Of a stretch of DNA of 8,829 nt, positions 1-8,829 are shown one piece after another (the stretch's first letter is position 1; every line of letters begins with the position of its first letter). Source of the DNA: Desulfofustis sp. (GTDB lineage Bacteria > Desulfobacterota > Desulfobulbia > Desulfobulbales > Desulfocapsaceae); the NCBI GenBank assembly GCA_030604345.1, contig JAUVWB010000047.1:1-8829 (forward strand), given 5' to 3'. Made by a program: the position numbers and the translations under genes. The notes below the pieces were generated by a model. That model had not been told where the DNA came from and searched no databases. It was given only the letters and a program-made list of their open reading frames with translations.

Positions 1-271
1 ACCCAGTGCCGGCGGCACTGAAACGGCAAAACCAGCGACAGGAAGCGGTTGAAGCGGTCAAGCGGGTACCGGGAGTACCCAACCGACCAAACCACCGGCA
101 GCAGGCAGCGGCTGAAGCGGCCAGACGGGTACCGGGAGTACCCAACCGGCCGCACCACCCGCCACCGGGAGTGGCTGAAGCGGGAGTAAAGGCAGCGCCG
201 GGAGCGCTGATCAACAGCCCGCCGAGCAACCAGAGGAACAAAAACCCAAGAAGAGCGGCTGAAGCGGTTGA
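1..271 (+). CDS. Multi-selenocysteine RiPP precursor peptide, 3' part (TGA recoded; 5' end outside window)
   Basis: Reading from base 2, 89 sense codons run to a TGA stop at 269-271 if four in-frame TGAs (50, 113, 176, 260) are read as selenocysteine. Visible residues U17, U38, U59 and U87 all sit in SG-U-SG; the first three are in GSGUSG. The rest is Gly/Ser/Thr/Pro/Gln/Ala with no hydrophobic core, as expected of a peptide substrate rather than a folded enzyme. Codons 17-37 and 38-58 are a 63-base tandem repeat differing at 12 bases and 4 residues. The last segment is charged (QPEEQKPKK) and ends U-S-G-stop. No ATG, GTG or TTG start lies in this frame before the first TGA, so the start and leader are upstream of the window. 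Each internal TGA has a SECIS-like hairpin, and a radical SAM/SPASM maturase follows at 400. I infer a selenocysteine-bearing ribosomal peptide modified by that enzyme. Alternative: non-coding repeat DNA, which the phased hairpins and conserved flanks argue against. Confidence 0.82.
56..88 (+). promoter_or_regulatory. SECIS-like hairpin 1 (for TGA 50-52)
   Basis: The stem GGGTAC (64-69) pairs perfectly with GTACCC (75-80) around the loop CGGGA (70-74). An outer stem GGTC (56-59) pairs with GACC (85-88) across a symmetric 4x4 internal loop. The apical loop begins 17 nt after the TGA and has G as its second base. As I recall them, bacterial SECIS rules ask for a loop about 16-37 nt after the UGA with G in the first two loop positions, so this fits. 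It would recruit SelB-Sec-tRNA. It lacks the bulged U of the E. coli fdhF element. Confidence 0.75.
119..151 (+). promoter_or_regulatory. SECIS-like hairpin 2 (for TGA 113-115)
   Basis: This has the same upper stem and loop as hairpin 1, exactly 63 nt downstream: GGGTAC (127-132), loop CGGGA (133-137), GTACCC (138-143). The outer stem is GGCC (119-122) with GGCC (148-151). Relative to hairpin 1, T58 has become C121 and its partner A86 has become G149. This is a compensatory T-A to C-G change that keeps the pair while the A-to-G alters an amino acid (Thr to Ala). The loop starts 17 nt after the TGA. Confidence 0.75.
193..209 (+). promoter_or_regulatory. SECIS-like hairpin 3 (for TGA 176-178)
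   Basis: CAGCGC (193-198) pairs with GCGCTG (204-209) around the loop CGGGA (199-203). The loop is identical to hairpins 1 and 2, but the stem is different throughout, so structure and loop are kept while the stem sequence is not. The loop starts 20 nt after the TGA. No outer stem as clear as in copies 1 and 2 was found. Confidence 0.72.
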
Positions 272-276
272 CCAAC

Positions 277-290
277 CGTGCGGTCGCACG
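277..290 (+). promoter_or_regulatory. SECIS-like hairpin 4 (for TGA 260-262), located after the stop codon
   Basis: CGTGC (277-281) pairs with GCACG (286-290) around the loop GGTC (282-285), the same apical GGUC as in the E. coli fdhF SECIS as I remember it. The loop starts 19 nt after TGA 260-262, within the range of the other three, but only 10 nt after TGA 269-271, so the latter should terminate. The hairpin lies entirely in the 3' untranslated region and is not explained by coding constraint. A competing small hairpin (265-269 with 274-278) is possible. Confidence 0.68.
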
Positions 291-299
291 ACAGCCGAA

Positions 300-330
300 G
301 TGTCGCTGCTGCGGATCGCGGCAGCGACAC
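300..330 (+). terminator. Strong 14-bp hairpin between precursor and maturase genes (possible attenuator)
   Basis: Bases 300-313 pair with 317-330 around the 3-base loop GAT, with one T-G wobble (310 with 320). The following sequence (331-346) is pyrimidine-rich but has no run of T, so it is not a classical intrinsic terminator. Between a peptide gene and its modifying enzyme it could stabilise the upstream message or partly terminate it, giving more precursor than enzyme. That role is inference. Confidence 0.4.
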
Positions 331-399
331 CGGTCACCTCTTCATCCATCGGCCGTTTACCTGCCAGAACGTCCATCTTCACCTTGAACAAACCGGTCG

Positions 400-1947
400 A
401 TGCCTCCGGATCTCATTCAGATCTTCCCCGTCAGCAGCACCCTGCTTCCCGATGATTTCGTCTGCCCGCCAGCCGATGCGCTTCCGCACCTCATCCGGAG
501 CTCGGCCACGCTATCGAGACGCCACCCCTATCTGGCCGATCTCGCTGAAATAGAACTGCAGATCCACGAACTCAACCAACGCCCGCCGGCCTCACCCAAA
601 ACCGTCGAACATCTGCAGATCCGACCGGGAGTCACGTTGCTGGAAGTTGGCTGGAACAGCTTGCCGGAACTCATCAATAATCAGCAGATCGAACCGCAAG
701 CTGAATCATCTCTGATTCTGCTGGTCCCGCCGACCGCCACCGCCCCCAGCCGTGCCCTGACCCCCAGCGGCCACCAACTACTGGCCATGAAGATTGCCGT
801 CGAACACCTGGACCCCAAAACCGTAGCCGCCGAAGGCAATGTTCCGGTAGGCGTGATCGATCGGCTCATTACCGCCGCTGTCCGGGACGGTCTGTTGCTC
901 GCACCGGCGCCCGCCCTGGTCCGACCGCCGTCTTTCTTCCCGGCCGAACCGCGCTTTCACCACCGGCTCAGGGCCGATGTTTTCACACTGCAATGGCACA
1001 TCACCCAGGCCTGCGACCTGCTCTGTCGTCACTGTTACGACCGCAGCAGCAGGACTGCCGTTTCCGCCGATCAGGGGAGGCTGGTCCTCGATCGGTTCTA
1101 CGATTTCTGCCAGGCCAATCACGTTCGCGGGCAAGTCAGCTTCACCGGCGGCAACCCGTTGCTCCATCGCCATTTTTTCGATCTCTATCGGGGCGCGGCG
1201 GAACGCGGCTTCATGGTCGCCATCCTGGGCAACCCGACTGATCGCCAGACCCTCGAATCCCTCGTTGCCCTGACCAAACCGGAGTTCTATCAGGTCAGCC
1301 TGGAGGGTCTGCCGGAACATAACGATTTCATCCGCGGCATCGGTCATTTCCAGCGGGTCATGGCCTTTCTCGACGTGGCCCGGGAACTGCGCATCTACAC
1401 CATGGTCATGCTCACCCTGACCCGAGACAATCAGGATCAGGTGTTGCCCCTGGCAGAGATGCTGCGCCATCGCGTCGATCTGTTCACCTTCAACCGTCTG
1501 GCCATGATGGGCGAGGGAGCAGCACTGGCCTCCGCTCCGGTGGAAAATTATCAAACCTTTCTTACGAAGTACCTGCAGGCCGCTGCCGAAAACCCGATCA
1601 TGAGCCTCAAGGATAGCCTCTTCAACATCATCCTCGACCAGGACGGCCGCCCGCCTGGCGGCGGTTGCGCCGGATTCGGTTGCGGAGCGGCCTTCAATTT
1701 CGTCTCCCTGCTCCCGGACGGGGAGGTACACGCCTGCCGCAAGCTCCCCTCCCTGCTCGGCAACCTCCATGAACAGACTCTACTGGAGATTTACCGCAGT
1801 CCCCTGGCGGCCGCTTTCCGCCAAGGCAGCTCCGCCTGCCGCCCCTGCCCCCTGCGTCCGGTCTGTCGGGGCTGCCCTGCGGTTGTCGCCGGACTCGGCG
1901 GCGATATTTTCACCACTATCGACCCTTATTGTTTTTACCGCCGCTGA
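400..1947 (+). CDS. Radical SAM/SPASM peptide maturase (selenobiotic-type)
   Basis: This 515-residue protein is predicted to modify the selenopeptide encoded just upstream. C205, C209 and C212 form the CxxxCxxC that binds the radical SAM 4Fe-4S cluster, followed by the SAM-binding stretch FTGGNP at 248-253. A C-terminal SPASM-type region carries C423, C428, C446, C480, C483, C489, C492 and C511, enough for two auxiliary Fe-S clusters. About 190 residues precede the radical SAM core. Residues 120-170 look like a small helical or winged-helix segment that could serve as a PqqD-like peptide-recognition domain. SPASM enzymes of RiPP pathways form thioether, C-C or similar crosslinks; Cys/Sec-directed chemistry here is inference. 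From memory the architecture fits the NCBIfam 'selenobiotic family peptide radical SAM maturase'. ATG 400 is the only ATG/GTG/TTG between the in-frame stop at 385-387 and the conserved region, but no convincing Shine-Dalgarno precedes it. It begins 128 bases after the peptide stop. Confidence 0.9.
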   Translation: MPPDLIQIFPVSSTLLPDDFVCPPADALPHLIRSSATLSRRHPYLADLAEIELQIHELNQRPPASPKTVEHLQIRPGVTLLEVGWNSLPELINNQQIEPQAESSLILLVPPTATAPSRALTPSGHQLLAMKIAVEHLDPKTVAAEGNVPVGVIDRLITAAVRDGLLLAPAPALVRPPSFFPAEPRFHHRLRADVFTLQWHITQACDLLCRHCYDRSSRTAVSADQGRLVLDRFYDFCQANHVRGQVSFTGGNPLLHRHFFDLYRGAAERGFMVAILGNPTDRQTLESLVALTKPEFYQVSLEGLPEHNDFIRGIGHFQRVMAFLDVARELRIYTMVMLTLTRDNQDQVLPLAEMLRHRVDLFTFNRLAMMGEGAALASAPVENYQTFLTKYLQAAAENPIMSLKDSLFNIILDQDGRPPGGGCAGFGCGAAFNFVSLLPDGEVHACRKLPSLLGNLHEQTLLEIYRSPLAAAFRQGSSACRPCPLRPVCRGCPAVVAGLGGDIFTTIDPYCFYRR

Positions 1948-2049
1948 CGGCTCGGGAACTCGACCGCGAACGCACAAGACCGTCACCTCGTCATCGTGAA
2001 GAAGGGGACGAAGGGTAAACGGATCGACGGGCATGGTTGCTCATATGCT

Positions 2050-2080
2050 GCGAAACCCCAGAGGATTCGCTGTTTTTTTT
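2050..2080 (+). terminator. Intrinsic terminator-like hairpin with T8 tract
   Basis: GCGAA (2050-2054) pairs with TTCGC (2066-2070), with a possible inner CC/GG pairing, followed two bases later by eight T residues (2073-2080). It lies about 100 bases after the maturase stop and about 150 before the nfeD start, so it probably ends the peptide/maturase transcript. The stem is short, so strength is uncertain. The AT-rich stretch 2073-2108 could also hold the promoter of the next operon, but I see no clear -35/-10 pair. Confidence 0.5.
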
Positions 2081-2231
2081 CGCAATTTTTAATCATTTCA
2101 TGCACAATGGATTGGCCACGGCAATCTGTCAACCCGGCAACGGCACCACGAACACTTCCCCCGGAACAGACAAAACGGCACCGTCACCATCGTAAACAAC
2201 CTCTCATCATCCTGGGCAACGGAATACGGAC

Positions 2232-2681
2232 ATGGTAATTCTTTGGTGGTATTGGCTGATCTTCGGTATGCTGCTGATGCTTGGCGAGCTCTTCATCCCC
2301 AGCTTCACCCTCTTCTGGTTCGGCTTGGCCGCTTTACTGCTGGGGGTGATCCTCTATTTCCTGCCGGACCTGAGCCTCCCAACCCAATTGGTCTGCTGGA
2401 CCGCCGGCAGTATCGTCTTTACCGCGCTGTGGTTCAAGTATTTCAAACCGACCATGATCGACCGGACCAAGGCCGGGATCTCCCGTGAAGCGGTCACCGG
2501 CCAGACCGGCATCGTCGTCAAACCGCCTCAAGACGACCTTCGGGGTGTCGTTCGGTTCGCCCTGCCGCTACTCGGTAACGACGAATGGGAATTCATCGCT
2601 ACCGAAACCTGCCAGGTCGGGGACCGCGTGGAAGTAACCGACGTCTCGGGCAACACCCTGGTTGTCAGACGCAAGCCATAA
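2232..2681 (+). CDS. NfeD-family membrane protein (short form)
   Basis: This 149-residue inner-membrane protein has three or so hydrophobic segments in its first half (roughly residues 3-20, 22-46 and 52-68). A soluble C-terminal domain (about 80-149) contains the GQTGIV start and the GDRVEVTDVSGNTLVV end typical of the NfeD OB-fold. There is no N-terminal ClpP-like protease domain, so it is the short form, like E. coli YbbJ. Short NfeD proteins are nearly always encoded beside an SPFH/stomatin partner and are thought to bind it in membrane microdomains. Here the SPFH gene starts 32 bases downstream, matching that rule. The ATG at 2232 has only weak GGA-type upstream complementarity; the start is supported by the immediate transmembrane segment. 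It is probably the first gene of a five-gene unit. Confidence 0.9.
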   Translation: MVILWWYWLIFGMLLMLGELFIPSFTLFWFGLAALLLGVILYFLPDLSLPTQLVCWTAGSIVFTALWFKYFKPTMIDRTKAGISREAVTGQTGIVVKPPQDDLRGVVRFALPLLGNDEWEFIATETCQVGDRVEVTDVSGNTLVVRRKP

Positions 2682-2713
2682 CCATCATAACCGTCCCGGG
2701 GAGGAAATCATTT

Positions 2714-3574
2714 ATGGAAATCGGCGCCCTATACACGGCCTTCGTATTCACCCTGATCGTCATCGTCACCCTGTTCAAAGGGGTACGTATCGTCCCGCAG
2801 GGTTCAAAATGGGTGGTTCAGCGACTCGGCAAGTATCATTCAACTCTGTCCCCGGGTCTTAATTTCATCATCCCCTATTTCGACAAGGTTGCTTACAAGG
2901 TCACCACCAAGGATATCGTTCTCGACATCCCCAGCCAGGATGTGATCACCATGGACAACGTGGTCATCATCGCCAACGCCGTCGCCTTCATCAACATAGT
3001 TCACCCGGAAAAAGCGGTTTACGGGGTGGAAAATTACATCGTCGCCATCCAAAATTTGGTCCAGACATCGCTCCGTTCAATCATCGGTGAAATGCAGCTC
3101 GATGACGCCCTGTCGAGCCGGGACACCATCAAGGCCAAATTGAAGACCTCCATCTCCGACGACATTTCCGACTGGGGCATCACCTTGAAAACGGTGGAGA
3201 TCCAGGACATCAACCCAAGCCCGACCATGCAAAAGGCCATGGAGGAGCAAGCGGCCGCCGAGCGACAGCGCCGCGCCACCGTTACCCGGGCCGACGGTGA
3301 GAAGCAGGCCGCCATCCTCGAGGCCGAAGGACGGCTTGAAGCCTCGAGAAGAGACGCCCAGGCCAAGATCGTCCTCGCCGATGCCAGCCAGCAGGCGATC
3401 GAAAAGGTTACCCAGGCGATCAAGGATCAAGAATTACCGGTCATGTACCTGCTCGGGGAAAAGTACATCGAGAGCATCCGGGCCATGGCCACCAGTGCCA
3501 ACGGCAAGACCATCGTCCTGCCGGCCGATATCCCGGCCGCCGTTCGCGGGATCATGGGAGGGGTAACCAAGTGA
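2714..3574 (+). CDS. SPFH/Band 7 (stomatin/slipin-like) membrane protein
   Basis: This 286-residue protein has an N-terminal transmembrane anchor (residues 5-22). The SPFH domain follows (about 23-180; note VRIVPQGSKWVVQRLGKY and the LRSIIGEMQLDDALSSRD segment around 120-136). An Ala/Glu/Arg-rich coiled coil (about 176-235, with EEQAAAERQRRA and EKQAAILEAEG) precedes a short C-terminal tail. It resembles QmcA (YbbK) and other stomatin-like proteins that form large membrane-bound rings and organise membrane domains, usually with the adjacent NfeD. ATG 2714 was chosen because GGGGAGG lies at 2698-2704, nine bases upstream, and the anchor follows at once; an open frame extends further 5' but overlaps nfeD and lacks such a site. 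Its TGA overlaps the GTG start of the next gene, implying coupled translation. Confidence 0.93.
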   Translation: MEIGALYTAFVFTLIVIVTLFKGVRIVPQGSKWVVQRLGKYHSTLSPGLNFIIPYFDKVAYKVTTKDIVLDIPSQDVITMDNVVIIANAVAFINIVHPEKAVYGVENYIVAIQNLVQTSLRSIIGEMQLDDALSSRDTIKAKLKTSISDDISDWGITLKTVEIQDINPSPTMQKAMEEQAAAERQRRATVTRADGEKQAAILEAEGRLEASRRDAQAKIVLADASQQAIEKVTQAIKDQELPVMYLLGEKYIESIRAMATSANGKTIVLPADIPAAVRGIMGGVTK

Positions 3575-4782
3575 CGCTGGACCCAAGAATGCTCGCGGCT
3601 CCCGCTTGTTCCATCCACCGGTTGCTGCTGCTCCTAGGAATCCTGCTCGGCTTCTGCCCGGGCCTGGCAACAGCCGCTGCATCCCCCGGCAATCCTTCCG
3701 TACGGCCCAACTCGATCATCCTCGGTCAGTCCTGTGCTCTCAGCGGCCCGACCCGGAACCATGGCCTGGAAATGCGCGCCGGCCTGCTGGCGGCCTTTGC
3801 CCATATCAACGAACGCGGCGGCGTCAAGGGGCGATCGATTCAGCTGGTGAGTCTCGACGACGGATATGAACCGGACAAAGCGGTGAAAAATACCATCAAG
3901 CTGATCACCGAAGAGGATGTCTTCCTGCTGATCGGCGAAGTGGGCACGCCAACCTCGAAAGCGGTGATCCCGATTGTCGAGGAGTTCGAGATCCCGTTCT
4001 TTGCCCCCTTTACCGGCGCCGAACTGCTTCGTGAACCGTTTCGTCGTTATGTCATCAATGTGCGGGCCAGCTATTACCAGGAGATGGAGGCGCTCGCCGC
4101 CTATCTGATCGATCAGCAGAAGCTGCAGCGGGTTGCCTGTTTCTACCAGAACGACAGCTATGGGCTCACCGGACTGCAGGGCATCGAGTTGGCTCTGGCC
4201 CGCCGCGGCATGGAACTGGTCAGCAAAGGGGCCTACGAGCGCAACACGCTGGCGGTAATGGGCGGAATCCGCGACATCTACCGCGCCGACCCGCAAGCGG
4301 TGGTAATGGTCGGCGCTTATCCGGCCTGCGCCGAATTTATCAAACTGAGTAAGGTCAAGATGAACCGGGATCTACCTTTTTGCAACATCTCCTTCGTCGG
4401 TACCGAGAGCTTGAAAAAGGCCCTCGGCGCTTACGGTGAGAATGTTATCGTTTCTCAGGTGGTACCCCACCCGTTGAGCAACGAAATCAGCTTGATTCGC
4501 GAGTACCAGGAATCCATGAGCGTGTACCAGCACGACGCACCGATCAGTTTCATCAGTCTCGAAGGCTATATCGCCGGCAAGCTGTTCGCCCAGATCGCCA
4601 CCGCCGTACCCGGCGAATTGACCAGGGAAGCTTTCATCAGCACCATGCAGGAGGTCGGCAGCTTCGATCTGGGCGGCATCACTTTACAATTCGGCCCCGG
4701 CGATCACCAGGGAATGGATTCGGTCTTTCTCACCACCATCTTTCCCGAGATCGTCAAAATTGAAGACAACAACCACCCATGA
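3571..4782 (+). CDS. Periplasmic ligand-binding protein, Leu/Ile/Val (Peripla_BP_6) type
   Basis: This 403-residue secreted protein has a basic/hydrophobic signal peptide (R17 then LLLLLGILLGF, likely cleaved after the Ala-rich ATAAA at 33-37). The mature part begins with IILGQSCALSGP, the typical first strand of type-1 branched-chain amino acid binding proteins. GLEMRAGLLAAFAHINERGG, VKGRSIQLVSLDDGYEPDKAV and LLIGEVGTPTSKAVIPI follow in family order. In this family the ligand is an amino acid, amide, urea or small organic acid; which one cannot be read here. No LivHMGF-type permease or ATPase genes flank it, and a Cache histidine kinase follows, so a sensing role is plausible. The GTG start at 3571 overlaps the SPFH stop by four bases and has GGGAGGGG about seven bases upstream; an in-frame ATG at 3589 is a weaker alternative. 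Confidence 0.88.
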   Translation: MTLDPRMLAAPACSIHRLLLLLGILLGFCPGLATAAASPGNPSVRPNSIILGQSCALSGPTRNHGLEMRAGLLAAFAHINERGGVKGRSIQLVSLDDGYEPDKAVKNTIKLITEEDVFLLIGEVGTPTSKAVIPIVEEFEIPFFAPFTGAELLREPFRRYVINVRASYYQEMEALAAYLIDQQKLQRVACFYQNDSYGLTGLQGIELALARRGMELVSKGAYERNTLAVMGGIRDIYRADPQAVVMVGAYPACAEFIKLSKVKMNRDLPFCNISFVGTESLKKALGAYGENVIVSQVVPHPLSNEISLIREYQESMSVYQHDAPISFISLEGYIAGKLFAQIATAVPGELTREAFISTMQEVGSFDLGGITLQFGPGDHQGMDSVFLTTIFPEIVKIEDNNHP

Positions 4783-4813
4783 CCTGAACGGCACACGGAT
4801 CGCTCGATTGGAC

Positions 4814-7273
4814 ATGCCCCGGCTCACCCCGCACAACATCCTGAAACGGCTCAAATCGCACAAGGTTTCACTGTCGGCCGCACCGTTTTACGCCTCACTG
4901 TTGGTTATCATGGCGTTGGCCATTTTCATCGGCATCTTCTGGGCCATCAACGAATACCAAGCCCTGCAAGAGAGTATCGCCAATATCCGGACCACCTACG
5001 AGCAGCAATACCGGGACCGGGTCAAAGAGGAGTTTGATACCGTCATCGATTTCATCGATTTCACCAGAAATCAGGCCAACATCACCGTTGAGGAGGATAT
5101 CCGCAACCGTGTCCAGTCTGCCTATACCATCGCCTCCCACCTCTATTCGCTTTACAAGGATGAGCAGAGCAACGAGGAAATTCGCTCGATGATCGCCGAA
5201 GTGCTCCGTCCCATCCGCTGGTACGACGAGCGCGGTTATTTTTTCGCCGGGCAGATCGATACCGGCATCATCGACCTGTTTGCCGATGAACCCTCTTATG
5301 AAGGAACAAAGAACCTGCAGGCCCTCGATCGTCAGCCAACGGCGGTCGTTAACGATATCATCGAGATCGTAACCGAACGGGAGGCCGGTATCTACCGCTA
5401 CAATCTGATCAAACCGTCATTTGCCGACCTGGTCTTCTCCAAGATCTGCTTTGTCAAATATTTTCAGCCATTGAACTGGTTCATCGGCGCCGGCGTCTAC
5501 AACAACGACATGGAGAACCTGAACCAGGCGAACGTATTGGCGCGCATCAGCCAGATGAAATTCGGCCGGGGCGGCGAAGTCTTCGTCTTTCGCTTCGACG
5601 GTACCATCCTCTCCCATCAGAATCAGCAGCTGATCGGCCGTTCCATCCGCACGCTGACCAACGCCGCCGGAGAAGCCTACGGAGAAGCCATCTGGCAGGC
5701 CAGCACCGCCCCCCCGGACCAACGCTATGTGGTCTTTCACGACGGGAACCCGAAAAACCACCCCTATCAGCAAAAGCTGTGCTTTGTCGGACCCTTCAAA
5801 GACTGGGGCTGGACCATCGCCACCAGTATGCACATGAGCGAAATGGAAGAACTGGTGGCTACCGCCATCCAGACCTACCGCAGGATTGCTTTCAAAAACG
5901 TATCGACCTTTCTCGTCCTCTTTACCGTCGCCGTCTCCCTGCTGCTGCTTGTTGCCTACTACTACACCGTCAAAATCAAACAGGGCTTCAGCCTGTTCAC
6001 CGATTTCTTCCGGCGCGCCGCCGATGCCAAGGTGAAAATCGAAAACGAAGACCTGGCGTTCAGCGAGTTTGAAGACCTGTCGGTACTCGCCAACCGGATG
6101 GTCGACGACCGGATCCAGAAGGAGCGATTGCTCCATCGCGACGAACTGCGTCTCGACACCCTGCTTCGTCTGGGCATGATGGAGAATTTCTCGCTGAAGG
6201 ACAAATACGAGTTCACTTTGCAACGGATCGTCCAGGTCACCCGCTCCGAGCAGGGATATCTCGCCCTGGTGAACGTTCCGCAGAGCCATATCACCATCAT
6301 CTCCCACCGCTGGGCCGACGGTACCAAGGTCCATTACGACAACAAACGCCGCCTCTCCAGCATCGTCGCCCGGGCCGGCCTGCCGGGAACCGCCGTGCAA
6401 AGGAAGACCGCCGTCATCTGCAACCATTGCAGCAAGTCGGGCAACGAGGCAACCTACCCGTACCAGACACCGATCAAACGCCACCTGGATGTGCCGATCT
6501 ACGCTAGTGGTCTGATCGTTCTGGTCGCCGGCGTTTGCAACAATCAGGACATGTACGACAATGCCGATGTCCGGCAGATGACCATGGTGCTGGAAGGCAT
6601 GTGGCTGCACATCCTCAAGACCCGGTCGGAGAAAAAAATGGCCCGACTCGAACGGCGGGTGATCGCCGTCCGGGAAGCGGAGCGCAGCAACATCGGCCGG
6701 CTCCTCCACGACGATCTCGGCTCCCACCTCAGCGGTGTCGAACTGCTGGTCAAGGCCCTGAAGCGCACCCTGGACAAAGACCTGCCGGCCAGGGCCGAGC
6801 AGCTTGAATCAATTCGCACCCTGATTGTCGACGCCACGGAAAAGACCAGACGTCTGGCACGAGGCCTCTATCCGGTCCACATCATCGAAAACGGGCTTGA
6901 AGCCGCCATTGAGGAACTGGCGATGGAAATCGAGACCCTGTTCGGCATCTCCTGTGAGCTCTCCTTCCACTGCACCGCCGAATACAGCGACAATACCATC
7001 GCCACCCATATCTATTACATCATCCGCGAAGCCGCCTTCAACGCCGCCAAGCACGGAAAACCCGAAAACATCGGCATCACCATGCATACCGAGGCCAACC
7101 TCCTGTCTATCAAAATCATCGACAATGGCAGCGGTTTTGATACATTATCCACTCGAAAGGGGATGGGGCTGCACACCATGGAGTACCGGGCCAAGGCAAT
7201 CGGAGCCACCCTTTCGGTACAGTCCGGTGCCATGGGCACCATCGTCTCCGTAACCAAAGAGATCAACAGCTGA
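4814..7273 (+). CDS. Membrane sensor histidine kinase (Cache, GAF, HisKA_3, HATPase_c)
   Basis: From ATG 4814 the protein has 819 residues. A transmembrane helix (about 24-46) is followed by a long periplasmic part (about 50-355). This reads as a two-module Cache sensor: DERGYFFAGQIDTGIIDLFA in the first module, GGEVFVFRFDGTILSH in the second. TM2 spans about 363-385, a HAMP-like linker follows, then a GAF-like domain (about 456-600). A HisKA_3 dimerisation domain carries the phospho-accepting His632 in LLHDDLGSH, and HATPase_c has N743 in the N box, DNGSGF at 770-775 and a GMGL G-box. This is the NarX/DegS/UhpB kinase class, which pairs with LuxR-type regulators such as the next gene. An upstream in-frame TTG at 4760 would add 18 residues and overlap the binding-protein gene; neither start has a strong Shine-Dalgarno, and ATG was preferred. 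The kinase stop and regulator start overlap at TGATG. Confidence 0.9.
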   Translation: MPRLTPHNILKRLKSHKVSLSAAPFYASLLVIMALAIFIGIFWAINEYQALQESIANIRTTYEQQYRDRVKEEFDTVIDFIDFTRNQANITVEEDIRNRVQSAYTIASHLYSLYKDEQSNEEIRSMIAEVLRPIRWYDERGYFFAGQIDTGIIDLFADEPSYEGTKNLQALDRQPTAVVNDIIEIVTEREAGIYRYNLIKPSFADLVFSKICFVKYFQPLNWFIGAGVYNNDMENLNQANVLARISQMKFGRGGEVFVFRFDGTILSHQNQQLIGRSIRTLTNAAGEAYGEAIWQASTAPPDQRYVVFHDGNPKNHPYQQKLCFVGPFKDWGWTIATSMHMSEMEELVATAIQTYRRIAFKNVSTFLVLFTVAVSLLLLVAYYYTVKIKQGFSLFTDFFRRAADAKVKIENEDLAFSEFEDLSVLANRMVDDRIQKERLLHRDELRLDTLLRLGMMENFSLKDKYEFTLQRIVQVTRSEQGYLALVNVPQSHITIISHRWADGTKVHYDNKRRLSSIVARAGLPGTAVQRKTAVICNHCSKSGNEATYPYQTPIKRHLDVPIYASGLIVLVAGVCNNQDMYDNADVRQMTMVLEGMWLHILKTRSEKKMARLERRVIAVREAERSNIGRLLHDDLGSHLSGVELLVKALKRTLDKDLPARAEQLESIRTLIVDATEKTRRLARGLYPVHIIENGLEAAIEELAMEIETLFGISCELSFHCTAEYSDNTIATHIYYIIREAAFNAAKHGKPENIGITMHTEANLLSIKIIDNGSGFDTLSTRKGMGLHTMEYRAKAIGATLSVQSGAMGTIVSVTKEINS

Positions 7274-7932
7274 TGACCAGAATACTCATAGTCGACGATC
7301 ACCCCATTTTCCAGATGGGCATGAAGGAACTGCTGAACCAGGAAGACGACTTTCAGGTCTGCGCTGTCGCCGAAGACTTTTCCAGCGCCCGACAGGCCTT
7401 GCGGGACCAGCACCCGGACCTGGCCATCATCGATATTTCCTTGGCCGAGGAAAACGGGCTTGATCTGGTCAAGGAGATCGCCGCATCCTATCAGGGTCTG
7501 CCGATCCTGGTGCTGTCGCTCCACGACGAGTCGGTTTGGGCGGAACGTGCGATCAGGGCCGGAGCCCGCGGCTATGTGATGAAGAAGGAGGCATCAGAAT
7601 CGGTGGTGCAGGCGATACGCAACATTCTCGAAGGTCGGATCCATGTCAGTCCGGCCATGATGTCCTTGATTCTCGACAAATTCCAGTTCAATCCCCATAC
7701 CCAGGGGACGCCGACCATCGAACTCCTGACCGACCGGGAGTTGGAAGTCTTCCGTCTGATCGGATTCGGGCTTTCCACCAGAGAGATCTCCGAACGGATG
7801 AAACTGGGCATCAAGACCATCGGTACCTACCGAGACCGGATCAAGCAAAAACTCTGCATCAAGACGGCGGCCGAACTGACCCGCCGGGCCGTTCTGTGGA
7901 ACGAGAATGAACATTTTGGCAAGACCGACTAA
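7273..7932 (+). CDS. NarL/FixJ-family (LuxR-type) response regulator
   Basis: This 219-residue transcription factor has an N-terminal receiver domain (1-120) with the acidic pair D8-D9, phospho-acceptor D54 (AIIDIS), S82 in the switch position and K104 (YVMKK). The C-terminal LuxR helix-turn-helix (about 150-207) has LTDRELEVFRLIGFGLSTRE, then ISERMKLGIKTIGTYRDRI with the recognition helix. The length is normal for the family. All catalytic receiver residues are intact, so it should be phosphorylated by the kinase encoded immediately before it; ATG 7273 overlaps the kinase TGA by one base, so translation is probably coupled. Targets are unknown; the operon itself is a reasonable candidate. 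Confidence 0.95.
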   Translation: MTRILIVDDHPIFQMGMKELLNQEDDFQVCAVAEDFSSARQALRDQHPDLAIIDISLAEENGLDLVKEIAASYQGLPILVLSLHDESVWAERAIRAGARGYVMKKEASESVVQAIRNILEGRIHVSPAMMSLILDKFQFNPHTQGTPTIELLTDRELEVFRLIGFGLSTREISERMKLGIKTIGTYRDRIKQKLCIKTAAELTRRAVLWNENEHFGKTD

Positions 7933-7961
7933 CCCCCCATGACCGGAAGTGCGACCCACCC

Positions 7962-8045
7962 ATGAAGATCCTCACCGTGGTCGGGAGCACTGGCCGGGCC
8001 TTGGCGCTGCGCCCTCCCAGCCTGGGGCATCCGCGTTTCAGATAA
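7962..8045 (+). pseudogene. Short ORF beginning MKILTVVG; possible remnant of a wecB-like gene
   Basis: An ATG at 7962 opens 27 codons ending in TAA at 8043-8045. The first eight residues, MKILTVVG, match the usual start of non-hydrolysing UDP-GlcNAc 2-epimerases (WecB family). The following residues do not continue that family's RPQFIKAAP motif in any frame I could read. A GGAAG at 7945-7949 is a distant ribosome-binding candidate. Eight residues is weak evidence, so this may be a decayed 5' gene fragment, a small peptide gene or chance. Confidence 0.2.
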
Positions 8046-8054
8046 GCCCTCGCA

Positions 8055-8099
8055 GCCTTACCGTCCGCCCGTCTCGCCGGAAAGGGCGGACGGTAAGGC
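8055..8099. repeat. Perfect 16-bp inverted repeat with 13-base loop
   Basis: Bases 8055-8070 are exactly complementary to 8084-8099, and the loop is 8071-8083. No T-run follows on either strand, so it is not a classical intrinsic terminator, though it is the first strong structure after the response-regulator operon and could stop transcription or protect the mRNA 3' end. It could also be a REP-like palindromic element, which copies elsewhere in the genome would show. Confidence 0.6.
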
Positions 8100-8559
8100 A
8101 ACAACCTACAACGGCCACGTCTTTGTCCCTACAAAAGAAAAGGACGTTGCCCGATTTTTCCCATCGCCGCCACTCGCTAAAATGATTTGCATAGCTGCAT
8201 CGAGCAGAATCTGACCAACCCGTTCGCCACCATCGCTCCGGCAGTGAGTATCGTATGGGGATAGTTACCATCCGTGTTGACCAAACAGCCGTGACGCCTG
8301 CCGAAAATCACCACTCCGGAACCGAGATCGAATCGGCGGCCACGATTCTGCTCAGGTTTGCCGCGGCGACCGCAACACTGTCAAGTGCACCCATGACCCC
8401 GCCGCTGACCGTACATGATCCGACGGTCCGGCCAGACCGGCAGACACCCACCCGGCCGGAACCACACGAGGCCGGCGCCCCCCTTGCCCCCAAAGGAAAA
8501 CGAGCGACTGCCGCTTTCTTCCATCACTCGATGCCCGAATCCACCACCGGTTAATCGCC

Positions 8560-8586
8560 GACAGGGCGTCTTCGGGAAACCCTGTC
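8560..8586. repeat. Hairpin GACAGGG/CCCTGTC with UUCG motif in its loop
   Basis: GACAGGG (8560-8566) pairs with CCCTGTC (8580-8586). The 13-base loop contains CTTCGG (8570-8575), a C(UUCG)G motif typical of stable RNA tetraloops, although the adjoining pairs are poor. Its role is unknown. Confidence 0.4.
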
Positions 8587-8657
8587 ACCCGCTGTACCAT
8601 TTCGCCTGCGCCATTATTTTGGGTTTATCCGACTCAAGCGTACGTCTCTGCAACCAA

Positions 8658-8780
8658 GGAGGCGGAGGGTATCGCTGGAAAACGCCTCGCGGAGGCCCGC
8701 CGGCGCGCCACAGCAGGCCCGCAGGGTTGTGGACAGGACGTCCGCAACTGACAGCAGGCCATGGATGGCCTGTCTGTCAG
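8658..8780 (+). other. Cluster of strong hairpins; candidate structured RNA or leader, unidentified
   Basis: Three consecutive stems are visible. GAGGCG (8659-8664) pairs with CGCCTC (8683-8688). GTTGTGGAC (8726-8734) pairs with GTCCGCAAC (8740-8748) with one wobble. A two-part hairpin at 8748-8780 has outer CTGACAG/CTGTCAG and inner AGGCCA/TGGCCT around the loop TGGA. A perfect AAGGAGG (8656-8662) lies at the start but no usual start codon follows at the right distance. An ATG at 8761 opens a frame to the window edge (23 codons), but it lies inside the last hairpin. The right side is cut by the window, so the element may be longer. I do not recognise the family. Confidence 0.35.
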
Positions 8781-8829
8781 CCGTGGCGTGGCGGCGAAGG
8801 AGCCGAAGAGCAGCGTTTGGAAGCGATGC

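Follow-up and report, generated by a model that had tools for sequence, protein, structure and literature searches.

A repeat-built and probably selenocysteine-rich SbtA precursor gene beside its predicted SbtM maturase in Desulfofustis sp.

The SbtA/SbtM system, a ribosomally synthesized and post-translationally modified peptide (RiPP) pathway to thio(seleno)oxazoles, was reportedly described by Lewis et al. (2021, Biochemistry 60:3347). Here we analyze an 8,829-nucleotide stretch of Desulfofustis sp. (GenBank contig JAUVWB010000047.1, positions 1 to 8,829 of the forward strand; hereafter the window), whose bases 1–271 are very probably the 3′ part of a selenocysteine (Sec, U)-containing sbtA gene with a product acted on by the maturase SbtM. 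A 2026 review (PMC13188914; this and the other papers cited by PMC number are quoted from excerpts) enters the SbtA family under the name Selenobacteriocin, with two Sec residues and the core SGUG. One SbtM is reported to form thio(seleno)oxazole from Cys or Sec with loss of four hydrogens (PMC11002830, section 14). Related ground is covered by bufferins and oxazolins, which are made by MNIO/DUF692 enzymes, have precursors with Sec-type (secretory) signal peptides, and carry a five-membered ring derived from Cys; the thiooxazole bufferins bind copper (PMC12452194).

Set beside these descriptions, the locus is a known kind of system, with a Sec number, cassette layout, and leader type beyond what the consulted texts describe. 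It shares with the SbtA/SbtM system (TIGR04081/TIGR04082) a maturase above the family cut-off, full-length precursor homologues that are likewise above theirs, the SGU core, and a hairpin after each TGA. It differs in degree: four Sec codons are seen and a fifth is likely, whereas the review lists two, and two to four are usual in the set surveyed here, with a maximum of six. Several UGA-encoded Sec per chain also occur in other prokaryotic multi-Sec selenoproteins, but the 119 families of the review have mostly one and in a few cases two or three (some archaeal FrhD/VhuD proteins have multiple Sec, no number being given in the excerpt; PMC13188914), compared with four seen in the window, five at locus L111 of its nearest relative, and six at L034. 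SbtA shares the signal-peptide-like leader and the five-membered ring with bufferins; in contrast, its neighboring maturase is a radical SAM enzyme rather than an MNIO/DUF692 protein, its ring would hold selenium rather than sulfur, and its export and metal binding are proposals made below. Our literature search found neither Sec counts above two for the SbtA family nor a reading of the leader as a signal peptide; the primary SbtA/SbtM paper was outside its scope, so this says little of what is in print.

Translated in frame 2 with TGA read as U, bases 2–271 of the window encode 89 residues, PSAGGTETAKPATGSGUSGQAGTGSTQPTKPPAAGSGUSGQTGTGSTQPAAPPATGSGUSGSKGSAGSADQQPAEQPEEQKPKKSGUSG, followed by a TGA stop. 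The SGU core that carries the Sec codon in SbtA (TIGR04081) is present at all four in-frame TGA sites as SGUSG, a motif found four times in this frame and zero times in the remaining five frames of the entire window. Direct repeats make up the gene: two 63-nucleotide (nt) copies are 83% identical, and a 15-nt Sec core occurs four times. Translation and repeat analysis agree here with the first-pass annotation, which had picked out a repetitive frame from base 2 with four TGAs in an SG-U-SG context. Because the window begins inside sbtA, it holds no start codon for the gene.

2–271, + strand: 3′ part of sbtA, a repeat-built precursor with four likely Sec codons (TGA = U translation; full-length homologues L111 and L031 match TIGR04081)
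50–52, + strand: in-frame TGA, likely Sec codon, number two of five on the L111 gene plan (translation; SECIS-like hairpin 3′)
113–115, + strand: in-frame TGA, likely Sec codon, third (translation; SECIS-like hairpin 3′)
176–178, + strand: in-frame TGA, likely Sec codon, fourth (translation; SECIS-like hairpin 3′)
260–262, + strand: in-frame TGA, likely Sec codon, fifth and last (translation; SECIS-like hairpin 3′)
269–271, + strand: sbtA stop codon TGA; the last apical loop is 10 nt away, outside the 16–37 nt range of bacterial Sec insertion sequences (bSECIS; PMC13188914)

Further evidence for recoding lies 3′ of these codons. Sec insertion sequence (SECIS)-like hairpins were called by a stem of at least 5 bp, G[GT] in a loop of 3–6 nt, and bacterial spacing from the UGA. 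By this measure a hairpin follows 209 of 217 Sec codons, of which 4 are from the window and 213 from the 78 of 84 distinct precursors having any Sec; all four window codons are included, in keeping with the earlier suggestion of a SECIS in every unit. Where 51 nt lie inside the coding sequence, the count is 137 of 140, compared with 30.4 ± 5.1 (maximum 45) in 200 synonymous recodings, and control sites gave 5 of 47 Cys motifs (lipobox Cys included) and 1423 of 6376 non-Sec codons. The stems vary in sequence while pairing is kept: among 118 distinct hairpins, 115 form pair 5 and 102 form pair 6, where shuffling gives means of 75 and 53. The hairpin register demanded at least four pairs, and pairs 5 and 6 alone are free evidence, though likewise maximized.

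The four window hairpins lie within the bSECIS constraints of the review (loop 3–9 nt, G in the first two loop positions, upper stem 4–16 bp, spacing 16–37 nt, minimum free energy ≤ −7.5; PMC13188914), with stems of 6, 6, 6, and 5 bp and spacings of 17, 17, 20, and 19 nt. The 45 nt 3′ of each TGA have minimum free energies of −14.7, −23.8, −20.7, and −13.1. Hairpins 1–3 share the loop CGGGA; stems 1 and 2 are GGGTAC/GTACCC, and stem 3 is CAGCGC/GCGCTG. Scanned against Rfam at gathering thresholds, the window gave 0 matches.

4–20, + strand: SECIS-like hairpin belonging to Sec codon one, the TGA of which is presumably just upstream of the window (identical in L111)
64–80, + strand: SECIS-like hairpin of TGA 50, 6 bp, loop CGGGA (hairpin search)
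127–143, + strand: SECIS-like hairpin of TGA 113, 6 bp, loop CGGGA (hairpin search)
193–209, + strand: SECIS-like hairpin of TGA 176, 6 bp, loop CGGGA, other stem sequence (hairpin search)
277–290, + strand: SECIS-like hairpin of TGA 260, 5 bp, loop GGTC, past the stop codon (hairpin search)

The gene module is a five-residue core, SG-U-SG, plus a short Gly/Ala/Ser/Thr stretch (GTGST, SAGSA, etc.) encoded by the bases that fold into the SECIS hairpin, and the recurrence of GAGST/SAVST/SAGSA in the peptides thus reflects what the hairpin codons spell. We consider it likely that the four in-frame UGA codons of the window are read as Sec. A gene caller taking UGA as a stop only would cut short or miss such genes, so selenium-rich peptides of the SbtA kind are easily overlooked.

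Full-length relatives supply what the window lacks. The nearest, L111 in genome G001, is 92% identical across window bases 1–1955 and encodes an SbtA of 127 residues with five Sec codons, beginning MKKELKKALAGLGVAGLLSAGGVTLPGAMAAGSGUGAK; the upstream start in the Sec frame that the first reading called for is thus seen in relatives such as this one. The first Sec codon of L111 (TGA 3548–3550) lies 11 bases upstream of the position equivalent to window base 1, and because the window retains the hairpin of that codon at bases 4–20, with identical sequence, a fifth Sec codon likely lies just upstream of the window. In Desulfofustis glycolicus DSM 9705 (L031; L030 is the same locus), SbtA has 116 residues and four Sec codons, and its Sec frame runs to the same C-terminus, SGUSG. 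The NCBIfam model of SbtA, TIGR04081, covers 27 positions of the leader (cut-off 30.5 bits; U entered as C). L111 and L031 score 41.6 and 41.1 bits, while the window piece alone, whose leader is outside the window, has no match; family membership is supported by way of the full-length homologues. The family match, frame, repeats, and hairpins together support the multi-Sec RiPP precursor proposed at first reading. TGA 269 was tried as an additional Sec codon and rejected, given its distance to the last loop and a 3′ sequence that is not conserved between L111 and L031.

Sec number was surveyed in 84 distinct precursor proteins from 89 loci with a leader match. Starts and terminal TGAs were assigned by simple rules (the L016 start by hand), five sites end exactly at TAA/TAG, two doubtful cases were retained (L048, read beyond its usable end, and L074, with a TGA at the lipobox position and no hairpin), and precursors surfacing later, in the co-occurrence survey, were left out. 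Six precursors have no Sec, 3 have one, 36 two, 22 three, 14 four, 2 five, and 1 six; counting only hairpin-backed Sec, the figures for zero to six are 7, 6, 34, 21, 13, 2, and 1. The six-Sec protein is the 124-residue L034 of Desulfofustis sp. PB-SRB1. The window locus is Sec-rich relative to the review's figures yet ordinary inside its own family, where two to six Sec are usual. Of the earlier suggestion that it might be a distinctive member, the Sec richness stands and the singularity does not.

Cys occurs at the Sec motif in L001, L002, L005, L065, L072, L083, L087, L090, L095, L102, L107, L120, and L121, and replaces Sec wholly in L083, L095, L120, and L121. Two Trichlorobacter loci carry a Cys-only SbtA paralogue just upstream of a Sec-rich one (L102:3018, L107:426). 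At L005 the hairpin persists after a Cys codon, and at L029 the hairpin-coded stretch seemingly persists after a Gly codon (judged by eye), relics as expected of recent Sec losses. The idea that Cys-only precursors track loss of selB was rejected: G087 fits (selB was not found there), but G095 does not. Ranging from one to six Sec, and including Cys versions as well as what look like SECIS relics, this cassette series offers natural material for measuring multi-UGA decoding in one short message. Separately, the Olavius algarvensis Delta 4 endosymbiont (L074, from position 3481) has a TGA where the lipobox Cys codon would stand, and no SECIS-like hairpin goes with it.

The enzyme encoded directly downstream of sbtA matches NCBIfam TIGR04082 (SbtM) with 633.7 bits against a cut-off of 350, confirming the radical SAM/SPASM maturase expected there, and has PF04055 and PF13186 domain matches. 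In an alignment of 29 sequences (the window plus 28 of 80 loci), the radical SAM cysteines C205, C209, and C212 (CxxxCxxC) are invariant, as are C423, C428, C446, C480, C483, C489, C492, and C511 on the SPASM side. SbtM is predicted to convert the Sec residues of SbtA into selenooxazole rings. An AlphaFold 2 model of its N-terminal domain (pLDDT 92.9) has top structural matches that are mostly RiPP biosynthesis proteins, with weak scores; the domain is predicted to be similar to a RiPP recognition element (RRE) and is a putative leader binder.

400–1947, + strand: sbtM, radical SAM/SPASM thio(seleno)oxazole maturase, 515 aa (TIGR04082; PF04055, PF13186)
592–933, + strand: N-terminal domain of SbtM, predicted RRE-like (leader-binding) fold (AlphaFold 2 model, structural matches)

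Precursor and maturase also travel together. SbtM is above cut-off in 45 of 97 relatives; all but one of these, 44 genomes, also have an SbtA match, versus 0 of 15 sampled from the 52 without an over-cut-off SbtM; in the single SbtM-positive genome without an SbtA match, G089, SbtM sits at a contig end. Together with the two family matches, this agrees with the first-pass placement of the locus in the selenobiotic family. The elongation factor gene selB was found in 42 of 45 SbtM-positive and 11 of 15 SbtM-negative genomes. In 12 of the 44 genomes SbtA is not listed next to SbtM (for 11 it is on a different contig, and in G023 it is about 600 kb off on one contig), so SbtA and SbtM may work apart.

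Two caveats attach to this interpretation, neither of them a decisive refutation by the standards set at first reading. The Sec frame stays open in homologous loci, as had been asked of it, but a few slots (L029, L015, L019) have, judged by eye, apparently turned to Gly or another residue rather than to Cys. The Sec-decoding genes, looked for in the two nearest genomes, were only partly recovered: G001 and G002 both have selB, tRNA-Sec (selC), and selD, and G002 has selA as well, whereas selA was not found in G001 with two families and one protein query. In G001, selB scores 364.7, tRNA-Sec 72.5, and selD 369.7 bits, and a weak SelA match (L150; 19.4 bits against a cut-off of 22.8) is presumably, by its sequence, a Cys/Met-type pyridoxal phosphate enzyme. 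An archaeal-type Sec synthase in place of selA was rejected, there being no SepSecS match in G001. Each of the two selD matches of G001 (C1:281600-282523 and 929270-930196) has one in-frame TGA, so SelD is likely itself a selenoprotein there.

SbtA leaders begin with basic residues and contain a hydrophobic segment (highest Kyte-Doolittle mean over 15 residues, 1.5–2.2). By simple patterns, what follows is AxA in 37 of 84 (a loose pattern), a lipobox in about 30, and neither in 14; the raw lipobox count is 33, but in L001, L002, and L090 the match is to the SGC motif. The leaders thus look like export signals. The lipobox recalls DAG-RiPPs (RiPP–lipoprotein hybrids; PMC12636315, in excerpt), which differ in chemistry; the window's nearest relatives carry AMA-A instead. 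Double use of the leader, by SbtM and by the export machinery, would fit its being the part that defines TIGR04081. Among open reading frames of at least 70 codons in flanks of up to 4 kb, SbtM is the only gene family shared by more than 21 of 95 loci (duplicate loci kept, neighbors not named), so no dedicated exporter is evident.

In the mechanism we propose, SelB would deliver Sec at each UGA of sbtA; the conserved leader (LKK-LAG-GVAGLL) would bind the RRE-like domain of SbtM, which would then modify each Sec to a selenooxazole ring. The leader would next act as a Sec-type signal peptide (AxA here, lipobox in other members), and the product would be released to the periplasm or membrane-anchored, its rings binding soft metals such as Cu(I), like thiooxazole bufferins. 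A metal-binding role is suggested for SbtA because bufferins, likewise with a Sec-type signal peptide and thiooxazole, bind copper; export and metal binding together are possible rather than probable. With similar caution, SbtA peptides may correspond, with selenium, to bufferins: exported and in many cases anchored in a membrane, their chains of two to six selenooxazole rings would bind soft metals and would lengthen or shorten through copying of a self-contained cassette holding Sec codon and SECIS. If so, five rings would be expected for the product of the window gene, more than the two to three Sec given as the range for multi-Sec prokaryotic families (PMC13188914). The export-like leader makes the metal-binding role directly testable.

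The best-surviving alternative, although an unlikely one, is that Sec-containing SbtA is a secreted signal or antimicrobial peptide instead of a metal binder. Many RiPPs are antimicrobial, and the family name Selenobacteriocin would suit such a function (PMC13188914). No immunity gene or transporter partner is evident by the neighborhood count above, in which neighbors were not identified singly, however, and many leaders end in a lipobox (as a pattern only), whose lipid-anchored products would not diffuse; the copper-binding thiooxazole bufferins also argue for the metal-binding reading (PMC12452194). It is considerably less probable that Sec is inserted yet the rings are not the end product, with diselenide bonds or other crosslinks connecting the Sec residues of neighboring units. 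This would suit chains with several Sec and linkers rich in Gly, Ser, and Pro, and the first-pass annotation had envisaged several selenols for crosslinking, an expectation at odds with the thio(seleno)oxazole formation reported for one characterized SbtM (PMC11002830); moreover, three precursors, one doubtful, have only one Sec.

Finally, we regard as close to negligible, and reject, the possibility that the TGAs are real stops, the Sec frame is a chance or decayed gene, and the true product is the Arg-rich overlapping frame 3–455, which has 150 open codons in the window and is not told apart by the substitution test against L111 (17 substitutions, 6 synonymous and 11 non-synonymous in either frame; 4.4 and 11.9 expected for the Sec frame under neutral simulation), but which is broken by TAA/TAG in D. 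glycolicus L031, where the Sec frame stays open to the same C-terminal SGUSG, and which is set against hairpins that are far fewer at recoded than at Sec sites and a TIGR04081 leader family that co-occurs with SbtM.

The remaining features lie around the sbtA–sbtM pair. A strong hairpin separates the two genes; no T-run was seen at it, and it perhaps serves mRNA processing or attenuation.

300–330, + strand: strong 14-bp hairpin between sbtA and sbtM (also in L111; in L031 with a different sequence)

Downstream of sbtM, L111 has about 970 extra bases (L111:5516-6484) that are absent from the window (1948–1955) and contain a reverse-strand open reading frame of 281 aa matching PrmA (PF06325, 128 bits). 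Window bases 2232–3571 encode an NfeD-like protein and then an SPFH/Band 7 protein. Bases 3571–7932 encode, in series, a periplasmic binding protein, a dCache/GAF histidine kinase, and a LuxR-type response regulator, perhaps forming one sensing operon.
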